From Phyllobacteriaceae bacterium (GTDB lineage Bacteria; Pseudomonadota; Alphaproteobacteria; Rhizobiales; Rhizobiaceae): DNA of 53,280 nt. Below are positions 1 through 14,124 of the stretch, in pieces. The translations under genes were made by a program, and so were the position numbers. The stretch spans positions 1 to 53,280 of the forward strand of contig JAJUHJ010000005.1 in the NCBI GenBank assembly GCA_029279965.1, in the 5' to 3' direction. Positions within the stretch are counted from its first letter, which is position 1; each line of letters starts with the position of its first letter. Under the pieces are notes generated by a model. The model was given only the letters and a program-made list of their open reading frames with translations, did not search any database and was not told where the DNA came from.

Positions 1-402
1 GACGATCTTGGAGCGCCAACCCTGTCCGTACTCCGGCACGACTTCACGGATGAATGCGTCCCGGCGGGTGTAGCAGCCCAATGCCTCCAGCACCGGGCCT
101 ATGTCCTCCACTGCGCCGTCGAGCCCGAATGTCTGTGCCACCAGACGGCCAAGGCCAAGGCTTTCAGGATCGGAATCGTGCTCCGGCATGAAGAGACAGA
201 ACACCCTTTGCGGCCCGACCGCTCGCGCCGCGAGTGCCGCGCAGACACTGGAATCGATGCCGCCGGACAGGCCGATGACGAATCCGCGCCTGCGCAGCGA
301 TCCGCGAAGCTGATCGCGCAGGACAGTGACGATGCGCTCTGTCTCCGCCGCCGGGTCTATGGCAAGCGCGGCGGCGGAAAAGGCTGCGCGATCTTCCTGC
401 AT
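1..402 (-). CDS. nadE: NAD synthase-like ATP pyrophosphatase, partial
   Basis: Only the first 134 codons are present; the gene runs off the left edge. NadE-family enzymes adenylate a carboxylate (nicotinate adenine dinucleotide in the classic case) and replace AMP with ammonia. The visible part shows the pyrophosphate P-loop SGGIDSS at residues 46-52 and no N-terminal nitrilase/glutaminase domain, so it is the short, ammonia-using type. The ATG lies one base after the TAA of the acyl ligase gene, which indicates tight coupling at the end of a five-gene leftward operon. Because its neighbours are an acyl ligase, a carrier protein and an amidotransferase, it may amidate a pathway intermediate rather than make NAD. 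The family call is firm; the substrate is open. Confidence 0.8.
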   Translation of the reverse strand, partial: MQEDRAAFSAAALAIDPAAETERIVTVLRDQLRGSLRRRGFVIGLSGGIDSSVCAALAARAVGPQRVFCLFMPEHDSDPESLGLGRLVAQTFGLDGAVEDIGPVLEALGCYTRRDAFIREVVPEYGQGWRSKIV

Positions 403-403
403 T

Positions 404-1924
404 TTATTCCTCTCTGCTTTCCGCGGCCCGTCGCCGGAGCACCTTTCCGCTTGCGGTCTTCGGCAATTTCTCGCGGAATTCAATGGTCTTCGGCACCATG
501 ACATCCGCGAGAAGCCTGGCGCAGTGGCCGATCACGTCACGCTCCGTCAGGGCCGGATCCGAGCGGACCGCCACAGCATGGAGGACTGACCCCAAGAGAG
601 GGTCCGGGCGGCCGAGCACCATCGCCTCCACGATGCCGGGGCAGGTGTGGAGCGCCTCCTCGACGCGGCGCGGCGCGACCTTTTCGCCGCGAATCTTGAT
701 GATGTCGTCCTTGCGCGCGACGAAATGAAGAAAGCCGTCCGCATCAGTGCGGAACAGATCGCCGGTCAAAAGGCGCCTTTCTCCAGGCCGTCTGCCGGGG
801 CGCAGAACGGCGGCGGTTGCCTTTTCATCTTGCCAATAGCCGCACATGACATGCGCACCGCCGACGACCAGTTCACCAATGGTTCCTGGCGCCACCGGAC
901 GGCCGCTCTCATCGGCGACGAACGCCTCAGTGCCAGTTATGGCCTTGCCGACCGAGGTGGGCCTGTGGGCCAGTTCCTCCGGCGGCAGATAGGTGGCACG
1001 CGCGCATTCGGTCAGCCCATACATGGAATAAAGCTGCACGCCGGGAAAGCGTTTGAGCAAAGCTGCGATATGCGCCGGCGGGAGTGACGCGGCGGCACTG
1101 GTGATGTAGCGCAGCATTGGCAGCGGGACCGGCTCGCTCATGGACAGGATCATAGCGGCCATTGTGGGCACCAGCGGCAAGCCGGTAACGCCCTCCGCGC
1201 GAGCCCTTTCCAGAACGGTGTGAGGAAAGGCAAAGCTCTTTTCCAGCACCAGCGTCGCCCCGACCCGCATGGCGACGAGAAGTTGATAAAGCCCATAGGT
1301 GAAGGAGAGCGGCAGGACGCAAAGCACGACATCACTGGCGCTGTTCTCGAGATAGCCGGCGATGGCGCCGGATGCGAAATCTACGTTCGTGTGCGCCATC
1401 ATCACGCCCTTGGGTTCCCCGGTAGAACCTGAGGTGTGAAGGATCAAGGCGAGCGCGTCCTCCGTCCCACCCTCTGGCGGAGAGCCAACGGCGCTTGAAA
1501 GGCAATCCTCGAACGGATGCGCGTTTGGCACAGGCGTGCCGCGTGCCGTTACGAGAAGTGGCGGGACAGCATCTGCTCCAGCCTCGACGCAGAGGCGGGC
1601 GTACTTTGCCATCGTCAGAATGGCCTTCGGTTGGCAGTTGTTCAGGATGAACCGCAGTTCCTGCTGCTTTAAGGCGGGATTGACAGGACAGAGTACGGCG
1701 CCCGCCTTGAATACGCCGAAGATGGAGATCGCCGCTTCCCACACATTGTCCATGAACATGACGACGCGGTCGCCCTGCCTCACCCCGCCCGCTGCCAGGA
1801 ACGTGGCGAGCCGGTCGGAATGCTCGTCGAGTTCCCTATAGGTAAGACGCCTTGGATCGGCGATGAGGGCTAGCTGCTCCGGGTTCGCTGCCGCGCTTTG
1901 GCGCAGGAAGGTTTCGATGCGCAT
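404..1924 (-). CDS. AMP-dependent acyl ligase (ANL superfamily)
   Basis: Adenylate-forming enzyme of 506 residues that activates a carboxylic acid with ATP and passes it to CoA or a carrier protein. The phosphate-binding motif TSGSTGEPKG is at about residues 164-173, and the C-terminal catalytic lysine motif PKTASGKVLR is near the end. The start at 1924 (MRIETFLRQ) was chosen because any upstream start would run into the carrier-protein gene, whose stop lies 10 bases before it. The adjacent stand-alone carrier suggests that the acyl-AMP is loaded on that protein, as in exosortase-associated or small polyketide-like clusters. The substrate cannot be read from the sequence. The family is certain. 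Confidence 0.88.
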   Translation of the reverse strand: MRIETFLRQSAAANPEQLALIADPRRLTYRELDEHSDRLATFLAAGGVRQGDRVVMFMDNVWEAAISIFGVFKAGAVLCPVNPALKQQELRFILNNCQPKAILTMAKYARLCVEAGADAVPPLLVTARGTPVPNAHPFEDCLSSAVGSPPEGGTEDALALILHTSGSTGEPKGVMMAHTNVDFASGAIAGYLENSASDVVLCVLPLSFTYGLYQLLVAMRVGATLVLEKSFAFPHTVLERARAEGVTGLPLVPTMAAMILSMSEPVPLPMLRYITSAAASLPPAHIAALLKRFPGVQLYSMYGLTECARATYLPPEELAHRPTSVGKAITGTEAFVADESGRPVAPGTIGELVVGGAHVMCGYWQDEKATAAVLRPGRRPGERRLLTGDLFRTDADGFLHFVARKDDIIKIRGEKVAPRRVEEALHTCPGIVEAMVLGRPDPLLGSVLHAVAVRSDPALTERDVIGHCARLLADVMVPKTIEFREKLPKTASGKVLRRRAAESREE

Positions 1925-1934
1925 TGTCCGGGTC

Positions 1935-2195
1935 TCAACCCGCCGCCTGCTTCTTGCGCGCGGCGAAGGCAGCGATGCGTTCGATGGAATCGAGGTTGTC
2001 CGGAACGATCTCGGCATCGGAGAGGGAAATGCCGAAGCGTTCTTCGAGAAAGGACACCAATTCCAGGACGCCGGTCGAATCGATCAGATCGTTTTCCATC
2101 AGCGAAAGCGTGTCGTCGAGCGGATATCTTTCGTCACCGAACAGAAAATTTTCGATGATGAAGGTGCGGACCTGGTTCTTGATATCGTCGGACAT
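1935..2195 (-). CDS. acyl carrier protein
   Basis: An 86-residue acidic four-helix carrier protein. The phosphopantetheine attachment site is the DST motif, with Ser40 as the likely modified residue (context LIDSTG). Its length is typical of stand-alone carriers. The SDST/DST variant and its place between an amidotransferase and an acyl ligase separate it from the fatty-acid AcpP, which normally sits with fab genes and carries DSL. It presumably carries the acid activated by the neighbouring ligase while another cluster enzyme acts on it. The ligase starts 10 bases downstream and the amidotransferase stop is 23 bases upstream, so it is co-transcribed. Confidence 0.9.
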   Translation of the reverse strand: MSDDIKNQVRTFIIENFLFGDERYPLDDTLSLMENDLIDSTGVLELVSFLEERFGISLSDAEIVPDNLDSIERIAAFAARKKQAAG

Positions 2196-2218
2196 GGCAG
2201 GCCTTTCTGGAAGGGACT

Positions 2219-4141
2219 TCAGGGGGCAGAAACGAATGTATCAGACCAGAGCTGCGCGGAGGCGATCCGCACAAAAGCAGCATTGTCGCGAAAGCCGGAA
2301 ATCGCGCCGCGGCGGTGCTTGTCAAGCAGCTTTGCCACGGCTCGTTCGTTGAACAGGCCGGCTTGGGCAATCGATCCGGCCGACAAAATCTGGGCGATAT
2401 ACGCTGCCGCCGGACCGCTGAAGCCCGCACTTTCAGGCGCGCGATAGGGCTGCTTCTTACGCTCGACGATCGCCGGGGGCAGGAGGTCGGCTACTGCGCG
2501 GCGTAGGATGCGCTTCTCACGCAGACCCCGCATCTTGAGGCGGGGAGGAAGTCGAGCGGCGAATTCGACCAGCCGGTGATCGAGAAAGGGAAACCGCGTC
2601 TCCACGCCGTGAGCCATGTTCATGCGGTCCCCCTGGCTTGATAATATGTAGCCGGGGAGCAGGAAACGGGTTTCGATATATTGGGCCTGATGGAGGGGGT
2701 GCCAGCGGTCGAAGGCCTCCGGCAGTGACGCGGCCAGTTCTTCGGCAGCGTCGTATCCGGCCAGCATCTCGTGAAATTCGCCTGAAAAGAACAGCCTGGT
2801 TCCGGTCGTTGCCCGCAAACGTGGCCGATGAGAAAGAAGCGGATCGCCCGGTGCCTTTGCCTGCGCTCCGAAGAAGGCGGCCAGATATTCCGGCGGCTGC
2901 TTTTGCAGAGTGGCAAGATAAGGATAGATCTTGCGGAAGAGATGCCGGCGGAATTTCGAGTTTGGCTGGCGGGCGCAGAAGCGGCCAATCGCCGCTTCCT
3001 TGAAGAGGTCATATCCGGCGAATATCTCGTCGGCGCCTTCTCCTGAAAGAACCACCTTCAAGCCTTCTTCACGCACGTGGCGGGAAAGCAGGTAAAGCGG
3101 GGCAGGGCCAGTGCGCAGCACGGGACGTTCCATGTGCCGGACGACGGCCGGGAAGGCACCGGCAATGTCGCCCGCGCGGCAGCAAACGGCGCTGTGCCGG
3201 GTCCCGAGCGTTTGCACCATCATCTGCTGATAGGCGCTCTCATCGAAGGCGGCATCCTCGAAGGTGATGGCGAAGGTTCTCAGGCTGCCGGGCACAATCC
3301 GTGCCGCCAGCGCCGAGACGATCGACGAATCGAGCCCGCCCGAAAGGAGCGCGCCGACCTCGACCGCAGCGCGAAGGCGGATGCGGGTGGCATCCTCCAG
3401 CAGTGCCCGCAATTCCCAGGCAATCTCGTCTTCTTCGCGTGAGTCTTCTTCGCCCATATCGGGGAATGTGAGAGACCAGTAGGGCCGGCTGCTTGCCTGA
3501 CCATTCTCAATGAGCATCACCTCGCCTGGGGGAAGCTCGAAAATGCCTTTGAAGGCGGTGCGCGGCGCGATGGGTGCCCAAAGCGTAAAGATTTGATCAA
3601 TGGCGATCGGATCGGGTGCGGCCGTTATGCCAGGCACCCGAAGCAGGGCTTTTGCCTCCGAAGCGAAATAGAGCACGCCCCGATGCCACGTGTAGAAGAG
3701 GGGCCGCACACCCATCCGGTCGCGCGCAAGCAACATCCGCTGCCGCCGTTCATCCCAGATGGCGAAAGAAAAGTCCCCATTGAGATGGTTCAGAAAGTCC
3801 TCGCCGAATTCCTCGTAGAGATGGATAAGAACTTCAGTATCGCTCTCGGTGCGGAAGCGATGACCGCGCTCGCGCAGCATGCCGCGCAGTTCGATATAGT
3901 TGAAGATTTCACCGTTGCAGGCGACCCATACGGTTCCGTTCACATTGCCCATCGGCTGTGCGGCATTCAGCGACAGGTCCATCACCGACAGCATTCTATG
4001 GCCGAGGCCCGCGCCGGTGCCGATATGGAAACCCTCTCCGTCGGGGCCGCGGTGAGAGATGGCGTCGCACATGCGCTGCAACAGCTCTGTGCCTTCCATG
4101 CGGGGCAGGTCCGCTCCCCAATATCCGGCTATGCCGCACAT
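2219..4141 (-). CDS. asnB: asparagine synthase-type glutamine amidotransferase
   Basis: A 640-residue AsnB-family protein. Met1 is followed by Cys2 (MCGIAGYWG), the N-terminal nucleophile of class II glutaminases, so the start is fixed. The synthetase half has the pyrophosphate loop SGGLDSS at residues 267-273. The glutaminase releases ammonia, which is channelled to a carboxylate activated as acyl-AMP. True asparagine synthases and pathway-specific amidotransferases of this length (often found in polysaccharide or exosortase-linked clusters) look alike. Here the neighbours (carrier protein, acyl ligase, GNAT protein) favour a role on a special metabolite or surface molecule. The biochemical class is secure; the acceptor is inferred. 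Confidence 0.85.
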   Translation of the reverse strand: MCGIAGYWGADLPRMEGTELLQRMCDAISHRGPDGEGFHIGTGAGLGHRMLSVMDLSLNAAQPMGNVNGTVWVACNGEIFNYIELRGMLRERGHRFRTESDTEVLIHLYEEFGEDFLNHLNGDFSFAIWDERRQRMLLARDRMGVRPLFYTWHRGVLYFASEAKALLRVPGITAAPDPIAIDQIFTLWAPIAPRTAFKGIFELPPGEVMLIENGQASSRPYWSLTFPDMGEEDSREEDEIAWELRALLEDATRIRLRAAVEVGALLSGGLDSSIVSALAARIVPGSLRTFAITFEDAAFDESAYQQMMVQTLGTRHSAVCCRAGDIAGAFPAVVRHMERPVLRTGPAPLYLLSRHVREEGLKVVLSGEGADEIFAGYDLFKEAAIGRFCARQPNSKFRRHLFRKIYPYLATLQKQPPEYLAAFFGAQAKAPGDPLLSHRPRLRATTGTRLFFSGEFHEMLAGYDAAEELAASLPEAFDRWHPLHQAQYIETRFLLPGYILSSQGDRMNMAHGVETRFPFLDHRLVEFAARLPPRLKMRGLREKRILRRAVADLLPPAIVERKKQPYRAPESAGFSGPAAAYIAQILSAGSIAQAGLFNERAVAKLLDKHRRGAISGFRDNAAFVRIASAQLWSDTFVSAP

Positions 4142-4165
4142 GGCCCGCTTCCCTTCCTGCCGGGT

Positions 4166-5254
4166 TTAACCAAATCGGTCTCCGATCAGTCTCGACCAGG
4201 ACTCCCCGGCAAAGCCGTTGAAGAACGCTTCTCCTGAAAGGAATGGCGCGGCAAGCGCCGGATCGCGCGCGTGCACGATGCTGGAGGAAGCGTTGAGGAA
4301 GAGAAACGGTCCACCCATCATTGCCTCCAGCAGCACCGGCATGGTGCGCCCGCGCAAGGCAGTGAGTCCGCGCCGATCCGCATCGGCCAACATGCTGTCG
4401 ATCACCGCACCGGTTTGCCCAGGCCCGGCAAGGACCTGGACCGCGCGTCCGATACGGCCGCGATCGCCGTAGTAAAGGAAGAGCCCCACAGGTTCTCCGT
4501 TTCGTGCGTATACGACGCGCCGCACCATGCTCCCGTAAAGCGCCTTGCGACGGGCATGCGCAATCATTTGATGAAGGTGGTTCTGCCAGTGTGGCCTGGC
4601 GGCAAAGCTTTCCGTGAACCGTATGAACAGGTCGGCTGTGGTTTCGTCATCCGTATCGGCGCTCGGCAGAGCCCGTTGCGGGCTGGCCGTCTTGCGCCAT
4701 GCGGGTGGGTTTATATGCCGGAGGAGCGCGTCTGCCGGGCGGGCGAGGGGAGAAAGAATACGGGCCACGGCTGCTTTGCTCGCAGCCATTTCGGTCAGAA
4801 ACGACGCGGGTTGAAAGACGCACAGCCATTCCAGGCTGTGGCCGAGCAGGATGGCCGCATTCATCTTTCGCCACATGATCGTGGAAATGTCGTTGGCTGT
4901 CTCGGACAGGGAGATATCCTGTGGCCCTGCAAGAAAGGCCCGCATCAACCGCGCGCCCGCAAACGGATCGCTCCTGTATCCGTCCACCATGAAAGTGCCG
5001 CACACGGCGGCACGCACGAGCCTTTCCCTGACGAGAAAGGTCATGGGCATGACGCCCATGAACCCCGCAACGGCGCCATCCTCACGCAGATAGACGCTCG
5101 ATGTAATGTCGCCATCGCTTCCGCCGAGGAAGATGTCCGCAAGATAGGATTCCAGGTCCGGGGAGGCGGGCTCCCGCACATTTCGCAATATGCGCTGAAA
5201 CATGCCGGCGACCGCCGGCACGTCTGCCTGAGCAAATGGCCTGACACTGTTCAT
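4166..5254 (-). CDS. GNAT-fold acyltransferase-like protein
   Basis: A 362-residue protein whose N-terminal part (about residues 1-120) resembles GNAT acetyltransferases: it begins with the common VRPFAQADVPAV pattern and has a beta-strand segment AVAGFMGVMP followed by a loop and helix. The rest is not recognised but could be a second GNAT-like half. It is the first gene of the leftward cluster; the asnB-like start is 24 bases downstream. In such a cluster it could transfer an acyl group, perhaps from the carrier protein, to an amine. The acceptor is unknown. The start at 5254 is the first ATG that gives the whole GNAT motif. Confidence 0.6.
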   Translation of the reverse strand: MNSVRPFAQADVPAVAGMFQRILRNVREPASPDLESYLADIFLGGSDGDITSSVYLREDGAVAGFMGVMPMTFLVRERLVRAAVCGTFMVDGYRSDPFAGARLMRAFLAGPQDISLSETANDISTIMWRKMNAAILLGHSLEWLCVFQPASFLTEMAASKAAVARILSPLARPADALLRHINPPAWRKTASPQRALPSADTDDETTADLFIRFTESFAARPHWQNHLHQMIAHARRKALYGSMVRRVVYARNGEPVGLFLYYGDRGRIGRAVQVLAGPGQTGAVIDSMLADADRRGLTALRGRTMPVLLEAMMGGPFLFLNASSSIVHARDPALAAPFLSGEAFFNGFAGESWSRLIGDRFG

Positions 5255-11243: not shown

Positions 11244-12236
11244 ATGAACTGGCGTCGTTTGGCCGGGCTTGCCTTGTCCGGAATGATTTGTCTGGGTGCG
11301 AACAGTGCCTTTTCGGCCGATCGCTACACGATCGGCACCAACCCGCAGGGAACGATCTACTACACGATCGGCGGCGGTATCGCGGCTGCTTTGCAGGATG
11401 CACTTGGTAAGCAGGTCACCGTTCAGCCCAACAGCGGCTCTTCGGTTTATCTGCCGCTGATCGCCGCAGGCGAAGTATCGATGGGCCTCAATTCGAGCCT
11501 CGATCTCGGTGAGGCGCGGGCCGGGGAGTTTGGCGAGCCGATGACCAATCTGCGCGTACTGGCGCGGGTCTGGCCGTTGCATGTGGCGCTTGTTGCCCGC
11601 AACGATCTCGGCGCCACCAAGGTCTCTGAACTTGCGGGCAAACGCGTTGTAACCGAATTCAGGGCGCTGAAGGCGATGAGCACGCTTTCGGAGACGGTCC
11701 TTCGATTGTCCGGTCTCACCGCCGAGGATGTGGAAGCGATGGCTGTTGCCGGCCTTGGTCCGGGGATGGAACAGCTTACCGAAAATGGGCTGGATGCGAC
11801 GCTGATCGCTGTCGGCATTCCGCTGACCCAACAGGCGCATGCCTCCATTCCCGGCGGGATTCGTTACCTCGACATTGATGGCGAGGACGCGACGACCGAG
11901 AACGCCGATGACATGTTCCAGGGTACGTATCTGACCGAAGTCGAACCGAGCGCGCGTCTGCCGGAGGTGACGGAGCCGGTCACCGTTGCCGCTTTCGACG
12001 TGTTTTTGACGGTGAACGCCGATATGCCCGATGAAGACGCCACGGCGATCTTGGCGGCGCTTTACGAAAGCCTGCCGCAACTCAAGGAGGACTATCCTGC
12101 GCTGGGCGGGGCAGCACAGGACCTGCTCTCTGCCCCCTCCAACACGGTTCCCTATCACGATGCCGCCGTCGAGTTCTACAAGTCGAAGGACATGTGGAGC
12201 GAACAGAACGAATCTCGCGATCAGGCGATGAAGTGA
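11244..12236 (+). CDS. TAXI-family TRAP substrate-binding protein
   Basis: A periplasmic solute receptor of 330 residues. The start at 11244 is preceded by GGGAGGA and gives a clear Sec signal peptide (MNWRRLAGLALSGMICLG...SAFSA). The mature N-terminus shows the TAXI hallmark YTIGTNPQGTIYY, with GGGIAAAL next. TAXI proteins feed TRAP membrane units, which use ion gradients to take up carboxylates, including aromatic and amino acids. The fused permease starts 20 bases downstream. The ligand is not readable, but the decarboxylase in the operon suggests an aromatic acid. Confidence 0.9.
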   Translation: MNWRRLAGLALSGMICLGANSAFSADRYTIGTNPQGTIYYTIGGGIAAALQDALGKQVTVQPNSGSSVYLPLIAAGEVSMGLNSSLDLGEARAGEFGEPMTNLRVLARVWPLHVALVARNDLGATKVSELAGKRVVTEFRALKAMSTLSETVLRLSGLTAEDVEAMAVAGLGPGMEQLTENGLDATLIAVGIPLTQQAHASIPGGIRYLDIDGEDATTENADDMFQGTYLTEVEPSARLPEVTEPVTVAAFDVFLTVNADMPDEDATAILAALYESLPQLKEDYPALGGAAQDLLSAPSNTVPYHDAAVEFYKSKDMWSEQNESRDQAMK

Positions 12237-12255
12237 GCAGGCGGCGGTCTGCACG

Positions 12256-14124
12256 ATGAAAGTGAACGCATGGGCGATGCCGATCCCGCTGATCGGCGTT
12301 CTATGGCTCTTCGATGTGCCGCGGCACCTCGGATATGTTGTCATCACGGAACAGTATCTTGCGCTGATCATCGGCCTTGCCACGCTGGTCGGCATGATCG
12401 TGGCACCCCTTCATCCGCGCCTGCGGGCACTGGACTGGGTGCTTGGCGTTGCCGCCCTTGCTTCATGGATCTGGCTGGCCGTGAACTACGAGGCATGGCT
12501 GCTCAATCCCGTCGATCGCGGACCCGCCAAGGTGGTGCCGGCAATCGTTGCGATCCTGACCGCGCTGGAGGGAACGCGAAGGCATTGTGGGCTGGTGCTG
12601 TCTGTGCTTGCCGCCGTTTTCATAGCGTATGGGCTGTTGGGTACGCACCTGCCGGGCATTTTTTCCGCGGCCGAGATCGCCCCGGCAAGATTCATTCTGT
12701 ATCTTTATTCCGATACCAACGGCATTCCCGGCCTGGTTCTGAACGTCGGCGCAACGCAGATCCTCGGCTTCATCGTCTTTGGCGCCGTTCTTAATGCCGT
12801 TGGCGGCAGCCGTATCCTGACAGACCTTGCCATGGCGACGATGGGCCACCGACGTGGCGGACCGGCAAAGGTGGCGATTCTCGCCTCCAGCTTCTTCGGC
12901 ACGCTTTCGGGCTCGACGGTCGCCAATGTCATGAGCACCGGGGTCGTCACCATTCCGATGATGAAACGCTCAGGCTTTCCGGCTCGCTACGCCGCCGCCA
13001 TCGAGGCGGTTGCCTCCAATGGAGGCCAGATCGCGCCGCCCGTGATGGGAGCGACGGCATTCGTGATTGCCGAGTTCTTGCAGATTTCCTACGCGGAGGT
13101 GGTTCTTGCTGCGATGCTGCCCGCGGCCGCCTACTACCTGATGCTGTACCTGCAAGTGGACCGTTATGCGGCGGCGCATGGTCTTGTCGGTGTAAACCGA
13201 TCCGACCTGCCGCCGCTCGGTCCGGTTCTCGTCAAGGCGTGGCCGCTTATCTTCCCGCTCGGCGTCCTCATTTATTTCCTCTTCGGCCTTGGCTATTCAC
13301 CGGGCAAGTCGGCGCTTTACTCGGCCGCCGCCTCCTACGCGCTCTATCTCGTCACCGCACCGCGCAGCGCTCCCCGCTTTGGCGTGCTTCTGGACGTAGC
13401 GCGCAATGCGGGAATGACGCTCATTCCGGTTCTCCTGGTCTGTGCCGTGGCAGGCATCATCATCGGCACGATCAACATTACCGGGCTGGGATTCGCACTG
13501 ACATTGGCGCTCGGCAAAATCGCGCAACTTGGCGGTGTTCTGCCGTTGCTTCTCGTCACCGCACTCATCGCCATCGTGCTTGGCGTCGGAATGCCGACGA
13601 CGGGCGTCTACGTCATCGTATCGGTGCTCCTTGCCCCGGCGCTCGTCAAAGCCGGCATCGAAGAGATGGCCGCCCATTTCTTCATCTTCTATTTCGGCCT
13701 GCTGTCGATGCTGACCCCGCCCGTGGCAATTGCCTCCTACGCGGCTGCCTCGCTCGCAGAGAGTGACATGTGGCGCACCGGCGTCACCGGAGTCAGGCTG
13801 GCCATCGTCGCCTATCTCATCCCGTTCGTCTTCGCCTTCAACACCTCGCTCCTACTCGAAGGCAACTTTATGGAGATCATTGTTTCCTGCGCCGGTATCT
13901 TTGCGGCAGGCTTCTTGCTTGCCGAGGTTCTTGCTTGGCGCGGCGCTTTCGGTGGCGGTTTTCTGCGTGTGGCGGTGGGCGCCCTGGCAGTCTTCATCGG
14001 GGCGGGCATCGCGATACTCGAGCCTGCAAGTCCCTGGGCCATCGCCGTAGCCGTATTAGGGATCACGACCGTCATTGCGGTCCGCCGCTTTACCGCCGGC
14101 GCGATCCAACAGACTGCCAACTAG
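12256..14124 (+). CDS. TRAP transporter fused permease (DctQM type)
   Basis: A 622-residue polytopic membrane protein that joins the small (DctQ-like, about the first 140 residues) and large (DctM-like) TRAP subunits, as is normal for TAXI systems. The large-subunit motifs are visible: GSRILTDLAMATMGHRRGG, then SGSTVANVMSTGVVTIPMMK, then a symmetrical repeat with GVGMPTTGVYVIVSVLLAPAL. It moves the solute bound by the preceding receptor by sodium or proton symport. It forms an operon with the receptor before it and the amidohydrolase 15 bases after it. Confidence 0.92.
   Translation: MKVNAWAMPIPLIGVLWLFDVPRHLGYVVITEQYLALIIGLATLVGMIVAPLHPRLRALDWVLGVAALASWIWLAVNYEAWLLNPVDRGPAKVVPAIVAILTALEGTRRHCGLVLSVLAAVFIAYGLLGTHLPGIFSAAEIAPARFILYLYSDTNGIPGLVLNVGATQILGFIVFGAVLNAVGGSRILTDLAMATMGHRRGGPAKVAILASSFFGTLSGSTVANVMSTGVVTIPMMKRSGFPARYAAAIEAVASNGGQIAPPVMGATAFVIAEFLQISYAEVVLAAMLPAAAYYLMLYLQVDRYAAAHGLVGVNRSDLPPLGPVLVKAWPLIFPLGVLIYFLFGLGYSPGKSALYSAAASYALYLVTAPRSAPRFGVLLDVARNAGMTLIPVLLVCAVAGIIIGTINITGLGFALTLALGKIAQLGGVLPLLLVTALIAIVLGVGMPTTGVYVIVSVLLAPALVKAGIEEMAAHFFIFYFGLLSMLTPPVAIASYAAASLAESDMWRTGVTGVRLAIVAYLIPFVFAFNTSLLLEGNFMEIIVSCAGIFAAGFLLAEVLAWRGAFGGGFLRVAVGALAVFIGAGIAILEPASPWAIAVAVLGITTVIAVRRFTAGAIQQTAN

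Follow-up and report, generated by a model that had tools for sequence, protein, structure and literature searches.

Five leftward genes at positions 1–5254 of contig JAJUHJ010000005.1, from the assembly of a Phyllobacteriaceae bacterium (GCA_029279965.1), are read here as one operon for carrier-bound acyl and amide tailoring that most likely decorates a cell-surface polysaccharide, with a probability of about 0.5 for this reading as a whole. The window, meaning the whole stretch of 53,280 nucleotides analysed, is the entire contig (G000:C5) of a 206-contig, 3.26 Mb draft assembly. All five genes were located on the minus strand where the earlier note had placed them. The run starts with a tandem-GNAT acyltransferase-like protein (4166–5254, 362 amino acids), followed by an AsnB-type glutamine-dependent amidotransferase (2219–4141, 640 amino acids; PF00733, PF13537; TIGR01536) and a stand-alone acyl/peptidyl carrier protein (1935–2195, 86 amino acids) with the serine of a DSTG motif. 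An adenosine monophosphate (AMP)-forming ligase (404–1924, 506 amino acids; PF00501, PF13193) comes next, a below-threshold relative of TIGR03098 ligase_PEP_1 whose start was placed at 1924 because the alignments of its relatives begin there. The last gene, a NadE-like ATP-pyrophosphatase (1–402; NF002048/PRK00876), is cut by the contig edge after its N-terminal 134 codons, and its remainder was not found elsewhere in the assembly. The genes are separated by only 24, 23, 10 and 1 bases in this order, which points to a single transcript.

Gene-neighbourhood counts bear out the earlier proposal that the activation and carrier pair and the two ATP-pyrophosphatase amide-forming enzymes make up a functional unit. 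In a sample of 201 genomes, which includes the genome of the window, the NadE-like family was present in 28 (27 above the NF002048 cut-off plus the cut copy of the window). The carrier, ligase and nadE-like genes were found in all 27 fetched loci and asnB in 26 (it is missing from L057), in a single gene order. All five genes recur in this order, with the NadE-like gene last, on plasmid pShin-01 of Shinella sp. HZN7 and on a plasmid of Nitratireductor rhodophyticola; the genes at the head of these two runs, annotated as hypothetical, encode proteins with 49% and 47% identity to the GNAT protein of the window, respectively. A profile search with the NadE-like family revealed relatives in Acidobacteriota, Gammaproteobacteria, Chloroflexota, Myxococcota, Bacteroidota and Methanoregula. 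The distribution is patchy: among the genomes sampled, the family cut-off was exceeded by 14 of 398 from the phylum of the window, 13 of 345 from Bacteroidota (the phylum of L069), 7 of 251 from Chloroflexota (that of L066) and 12 of 196 from the archaeal phylum of L071; Methanosarcina acetivorans was the only one of 14 control genomes to exceed it.

A complete set was defined as a carrier, a ligase and either AsnB or a WbuX-like amidotransferase (AMT) around a NadE-like gene. It was found at 70 of 78 module loci (carrier 76, ligase 74, AsnB 61, AMT 14) and at none of 66 control loci of other NadE relatives, which contained one ligase and no carrier, AsnB or AMT. Among loci of at least 9 kb, the set was complete in 69/76 module loci versus 0/53 controls. 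Two pairs of loci (L060/L037 and L071/L200) are the same places, giving a distinct complete-set count of 68/76; the counts of A4 residues, motifs and polysaccharide genes given below keep both members of a pair where both passed the filters. The module queries included proteins from seven of the counted loci, the control loci were unmatched by taxon, and the genomes are not phylogenetically independent. Between phyla the gene order is shuffled and the gene content retained.

The incomplete loci are L057, L061, L062 (at a contig end), L063, L067, L164, L166 and L178 (a short contig). No ligase lies beside the nadE-like gene in L061, L063, L166 and L178, the last being a contig of 5.3 kb. The Devosia locus L061 has a 39% identical ligase relative about 17 kb from nadE-like, and the window query found no ligase at E ≤ 1e-60 in the genomes of L063 and L166, a search that may miss distant Bacteroidota ligases. 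Outside the 78 loci stands L201, below the cut-off and with no module gene found, while L072 and L073 (32–33% identical relatives on contigs of 7.6 and 3.1 kb, no module gene found) belong to neither set. Genomes G324, G395, G398 and G1226 exceed the cut-off and lie outside the locus set; G211 has two copies, of which the one on C23, the contig of L071, was read.

The GNAT protein also proved to be part of the set, as the earlier note had supposed. A search of the 201 genomes gave 28 genomes with matches at E ≤ 1e-10, 26 of them at E ≤ 1e-40, and matches of the latter strength occur in 26 of the 28 genomes with the NadE-like gene versus 0 of the 173 others. The two NadE-like genomes without a strong match are G069 and G120; weak matches of 25–29% identity come from G032 and G130, which have no module. 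In all 26 genomes the GNAT match lies within 20 kb of nadE-like on the same contig. At 35% identity or more, it is found in 21 of the 27 fetched loci, 11 times at the operon head and 10 times downstream on the other strand, and the persistence of this link across two arrangements argues for a working unit.

Neither Pfam nor NCBIfam gave a match to the window GNAT-like protein at E ≤ 0.001. Its AlphaFold model (mean predicted local distance difference test score, pLDDT, of 88) has a tandem-GNAT acyltransferase fold: the best Foldseek matches are N-myristoyltransferases and other, bacterial, tandem GNATs, with template-modelling scores of 0.45–0.59 among the matches listed. The GNAT profile searched against PDB sequences gave weak matches, nearly all of them N-myristoyltransferases, with a best E-value of 0.19.

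The NadE-like protein, although its gene is annotated as NAD synthase, is probably not an NAD synthase. The window fragment scores 177.7 bits against NF002048 over 130 of 330 positions (the gene is cut; the curated cut-off is 313), and full-length relatives exceed this cut-off. The latter are about 325–345 amino acids long where aligned, match NadE along their whole length, and the ATP-pyrophosphatase P-loop and Mg/ATP motif are kept (SGGIDSS in the window; GTPNRLEYDQGFFVKNGDGAAD in full-length relatives). The full-length protein of L045, which shares 75% identity with the window fragment across 129 residues, gave an AlphaFold model with a mean pLDDT of 92 that matches ammonia-dependent NAD synthetases. 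Two features set the family apart, both read from relatives since the window copy ends before the region concerned. The full-length proteins have about 52 extra residues (the extra segment covers roughly residues 108–175 in the L045 protein); the P-loop-to-GTxN spacing is 152–156 residues, whereas 25 of the 26 canonical proteins have 98–116 and the remaining one has 137. The canonical substrate loop PSAxLWxGQTDE occurs in 0 of the 65 module proteins, out of 66 examined, that contain the anchor motif versus 19 of 26 canonical NadE proteins (the other 7 also fail the pattern); P[ST]xDT[YW] takes its place in 58 of the 65. Together, the extra residues and the rewritten loop indicate that NAD synthesis is probably not the function, and a different carboxylate substrate is inferred from these sequence features. 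A tree that includes 12 canonical NadEs separates these from the other sequences by a supported branch (98/95).

The NadE-like gene was also noted on 116 plasmid records, mainly from Sinorhizobium, Azospirillum, Ensifer, Shinella and Mesorhizobium. In the region C2:97835–103663, genome G074 holds a second NadE-like copy with an internal stop, near a second GNAT gene.

The catalytic motifs are intact. The window AsnB exceeds the TIGR01536 cut-off (507.5 bits versus 267.1) and has both the glutaminase Cys2 (MCGI) and the SGGLDS motif, but passing this asparagine synthase model leaves its substrate unfixed. It falls below the cut-offs of TIGR03108 eps_aminotran_1 (458.6 bits versus 816.9) and of the N-acetylglutaminylglutamine amidotransferase model (392.5 bits versus 570.1). 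The PP-loop is retained, and across relatives Cys2 is kept in all 59 AsnB rows having a residue there (61 rows in total). A phage search with AsnB returned 21 records, each below 60% identity. Among solved structures, the carrier is closest to peptidyl carrier proteins. The ligase scores 400 bits (399.5 in the genome search) against the TIGR03098 cut-off of 592.35, and its closest solved relative is 3wvn, deposited as a non-ribosomal peptide synthetase (NRPS). In amino-acid adenylation enzymes, the Asp at position A4 binds the amino group. As in 3wvn, this position is Asp in 28 of 70 module ligases; the others have Thr, Gly, Asn, Cys, Ser or Ala.

Among the product types raised in the earlier note, surface modification, given there as an alternative, is the best supported, and the support comes from neighbouring genes in other genomes. 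Queries for Wzz, Wzc, Wzy_C, Wzx, sugar-transferase, deacetylase and glycosyltransferase (GT), taken from five of the counted loci, were run against loci of at least 15 kb. At least one query matched in 32 of 58 bacterial module loci versus 1 of 42 controls; with GT matches set aside, the counts were 28/58 and 0/42. Azospirillum thermophilum has in one row a sugar transferase, an O-antigen ligase, GTs, a deacetylase, the carrier, the ligase, AsnB, NadE and GNAT, and a Bacteroidales locus contains Bac_transf and Wzc-like genes. The top named match of the ligase and the second named match of AsnB both belong to exosortase-A families.

In the proposed pathway, the AMP-forming ligase would adenylate a small acid and load it onto the phosphopantetheine of the carrier; in many relatives the resulting acyl group is perhaps aminoacyl. 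AsnB, fed by glutamine, would convert one carboxylate to the corresponding carboxamide, for instance yielding a uronamide from a uronic acid in the manner of WbpS. Another carboxylate, perhaps that of the carrier-bound acid, may be amidated by the NadE-like enzyme, and the GNAT protein would transfer the acyl group from the carrier to an amino sugar. Somewhat more tentatively, a NadE-derived enzyme with a new substrate may act on a carrier-bound acyl group and help to build a new amide-bearing envelope substituent, a carrier chemistry not described before. On the same tentative footing, this chemistry may be spread among rhizobia, Bacteroidota, Chloroflexota, Acidobacteriota, Myxococcota and methanogenic archaea.

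Several observations weigh against polysaccharide decoration. All 13 archaeal module loci of at least 15 kb and 26 of the 58 bacterial ones gave no match to the polysaccharide queries. The six genes scanned at 5.4–12 kb of the window (the scan extended to 12 kb only) are likewise not polysaccharide-related: their matches are to the families of helix-turn-helix proteins, sulfate permeases, GH25 proteins, short-chain dehydrogenases, LysR proteins and NMT1-like binding proteins. The Azospirillum GNAT protein is only a remote relative (E 2e-4, hhalign probability 66%). At A4 the window ligase has Thr, not Asp, which makes an amino-acid substrate less likely here, and as the A4 residue differs among lineages, the loaded acid may vary too. 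Finally, SMb20650, the Sinorhizobium meliloti counterpart of the ligase, is treated in print as a fatty-acid enzyme (excerpts of PMC7232532 and PMC10315480).

These last reports bear on an unlikely alternative, a lipid product: the ligase would load a fatty acid onto the carrier, the N-myristoyltransferase-like GNAT protein would make an N-acyl amino acid amide or a similar compound, and AsnB and the NadE-like enzyme would amidate the head group. According to excerpts of PMC7232532, SMb20650 gave acylated SMb20651, the carrier, in E. coli, and excerpts of PMC10315480 describe smb20650 as down-regulated alongside fatty-acid degradation genes under predation. The resemblance of the GNAT model to N-myristoyltransferases and a weak match of the window carrier to the ornithine-lipid carrier model (64.9 bits, cut-off 130) point the same way. 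However, SMb20650 failed to replace FadD for growth on oleate or fatty-acid use in the same excerpts of PMC7232532, the bacterial module loci have polysaccharide neighbours, and the NRPS-like Asp at A4 recurs among module ligases. Plain fatty-acid activation as the whole story was rejected on the FadD result and the A4 Asp. Also improbable is a soluble amide metabolite (an osmolyte, a signal or a cofactor-like compound) built on the carrier and then released. It would suit the tight carrier-ligase-AMT-NadE operon of ten archaeal loci without polysaccharide-query matches nearby and the below-cut-off match of AsnB to the N-acetylglutaminylglutamine model, but it leaves aside the bacterial linkage to polysaccharide genes, and no conspicuous exporter or releasing enzyme turned up in the subset of neighbour clusters that was identified.

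It is very improbable that the NadE-like protein works as a true ammonia-dependent NAD synthase and that its neighbours are unrelated. NF002048 is named NAD(+) synthase, and the module proteins retain the fold and the motif GTxNxxExxxGFFVKxGDG. On the other side stand the extra residues, the replaced loop and the lack of the canonical motif in relatives, as well as the absence of the complete neighbour set from all 66 control loci. The second nadE that the earlier note had suggested looking for is present in the genome as a 597-amino-acid frame on C115 (253.5 bits to PF02540; a further match on C104 is weak, at 25.2 bits), which rules out the NadE-like gene as the sole NAD synthase. A chance neighbourhood would draw on nothing beyond the contig edge limiting the view, and the locus counts (70/78 versus 0/66) and the GNAT genome counts contradict it.

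Tailoring of a surface polysaccharide has partial parallels in known systems. An exosortase-A (XrtA/PEP-CTERM) set shares relatives of the TIGR03098 ligase and TIGR03108 amidotransferase with the module, although the window proteins fall below both cut-offs and the module adds a NadE-like enzyme. In the Dlt system, DltA is the ligase, DltC the carrier and DltB an MBOAT protein. Like the module, it has a ligase and a carrier feeding surface acylation, and an MBOAT gene lies in or near two module loci; its ligase is of another family, the module has amide-forming enzymes, and no MBOAT was noticed in the rhizobial loci. The WbuX/WbpG family (TIGR03573) has a relative that replaces AsnB in archaeal loci, and no such relative is in the window module. 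The Wbp/Vim system (WbpS, VimA, VimE), the closest example worked out so far, resembles the module in its AsnB-type amidotransferase and GNAT-like protein, a likeness drawn from the roles described in excerpts of PMC7468200, whereas a word check of the main text of that article gave no description of a carrier or ligase. The same excerpts report that its linking sugar is 2-N-seryl,3-N-acetylglucuronamide, that the uronamide form of this sugar is lost when the AsnB homologue is deleted, and that swapping VimA alters its amino acid; the addition of serine or glycine to the sugar was attributed by inference to an N-acetyltransferase-like protein. TIGR03108 is also reported to be matched by AsnB relatives encoded next to VimA-like and exosortase genes (PMC7468200).

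A variant of the module is found in archaea. In ten archaeal loci (L189–L198) the order carrier-ligase-AMT-NadE-like is kept on one strand, an arrangement from which L199 and L071/L200 differ. The AMT is related to the WbuX N-acetyl sugar amidotransferase (two members score 87 and 113 bits, cut-off 203) and stands in place of AsnB in one locus from Chloroflexota and in 13 from archaea, two of the latter being the same place. The gene L190:4791–5471 has a weak match to phosphopantetheinyl transferases (E 2e-11), and relatives of it are present in 11 of the 14 archaeal loci, again with one place counted twice. In 8 of these 11 loci the relative sits 0.3–1.4 kb upstream of the carrier gene and shares its strand, which fits a carrier needing its own activating enzyme. 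The archaeal exchange of AsnB for the WbuX-like enzyme, together with MBOAT genes at two Bacteroidota loci, suggests that the donor system is portable and that different transferases serve it.

The two MBOAT genes, one within the L070 module (PF03062, 12489–14892) and one near that of L172 (14397–15866, a 36% identical relative), recall Dlt or alginate acetylation systems. In L069 a glyoxalase/VOC-fold protein (11918–12340, PF13669) follows the ligase and might act on an acyl thioester; genes of similar appearance, judged by eye alone, are located close to the module in L166 and L167. Near the NadE-like gene, five archaeal module loci have a FabG-like reductase cluster (e.g., L198:8685–9425) and five a DUF362 iron-sulfur protein cluster.

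The window copy was probably acquired separately, judging from identities to relatives. Its AsnB is 71% identical to that of G079, from another genus, versus 61–62% to its own genus (L033, L035, L037–L040), and its GNAT protein is 61% identical versus 44–47%. This suggests horizontal gain or a mis-binned contig, the latter being possible given the 3.11% contamination estimate for the assembly.

A carrier-protein operon on S. meliloti pSymB was reportedly described by Ramos-Vega et al. in 2009. We take locus L031, whose record bears no gene names, to be this SMb20650 (ligase)/SMb20651 (carrier) operon; the 12 S. meliloti records listed (NC_003078 not among them) have one carrier place each. Like the window, it has the order asnB-carrier-ligase-nadE, with identities of 63% for AsnB, 64% for the carrier, 58% for the ligase and 60% for the nadE fragment. 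The GNAT relative of this locus (L032), unlike that of the window, is not at the operon head but is encoded on the opposite strand at a distance of about 10 kb. The label "uncharacterised" in the earlier note is partly wrong: the S. meliloti carrier and ligase have been studied and their genes shown to be co-transcribed (excerpts of PMC7232532). No account of the whole, cross-domain module was found in searches of the open-licence PMC literature.

The rhizobial operon is thus already known as a carrier-protein locus, and the module may realistically still hold new chemistry. A ready handle is offered by the carrier and ligase of S. meliloti, which have already been expressed (PMC7232532). Finding the substrate of the NadE-like enzyme would correct an NAD synthase annotation and bring to light how plant symbionts and methanogens modify a surface or a metabolite.

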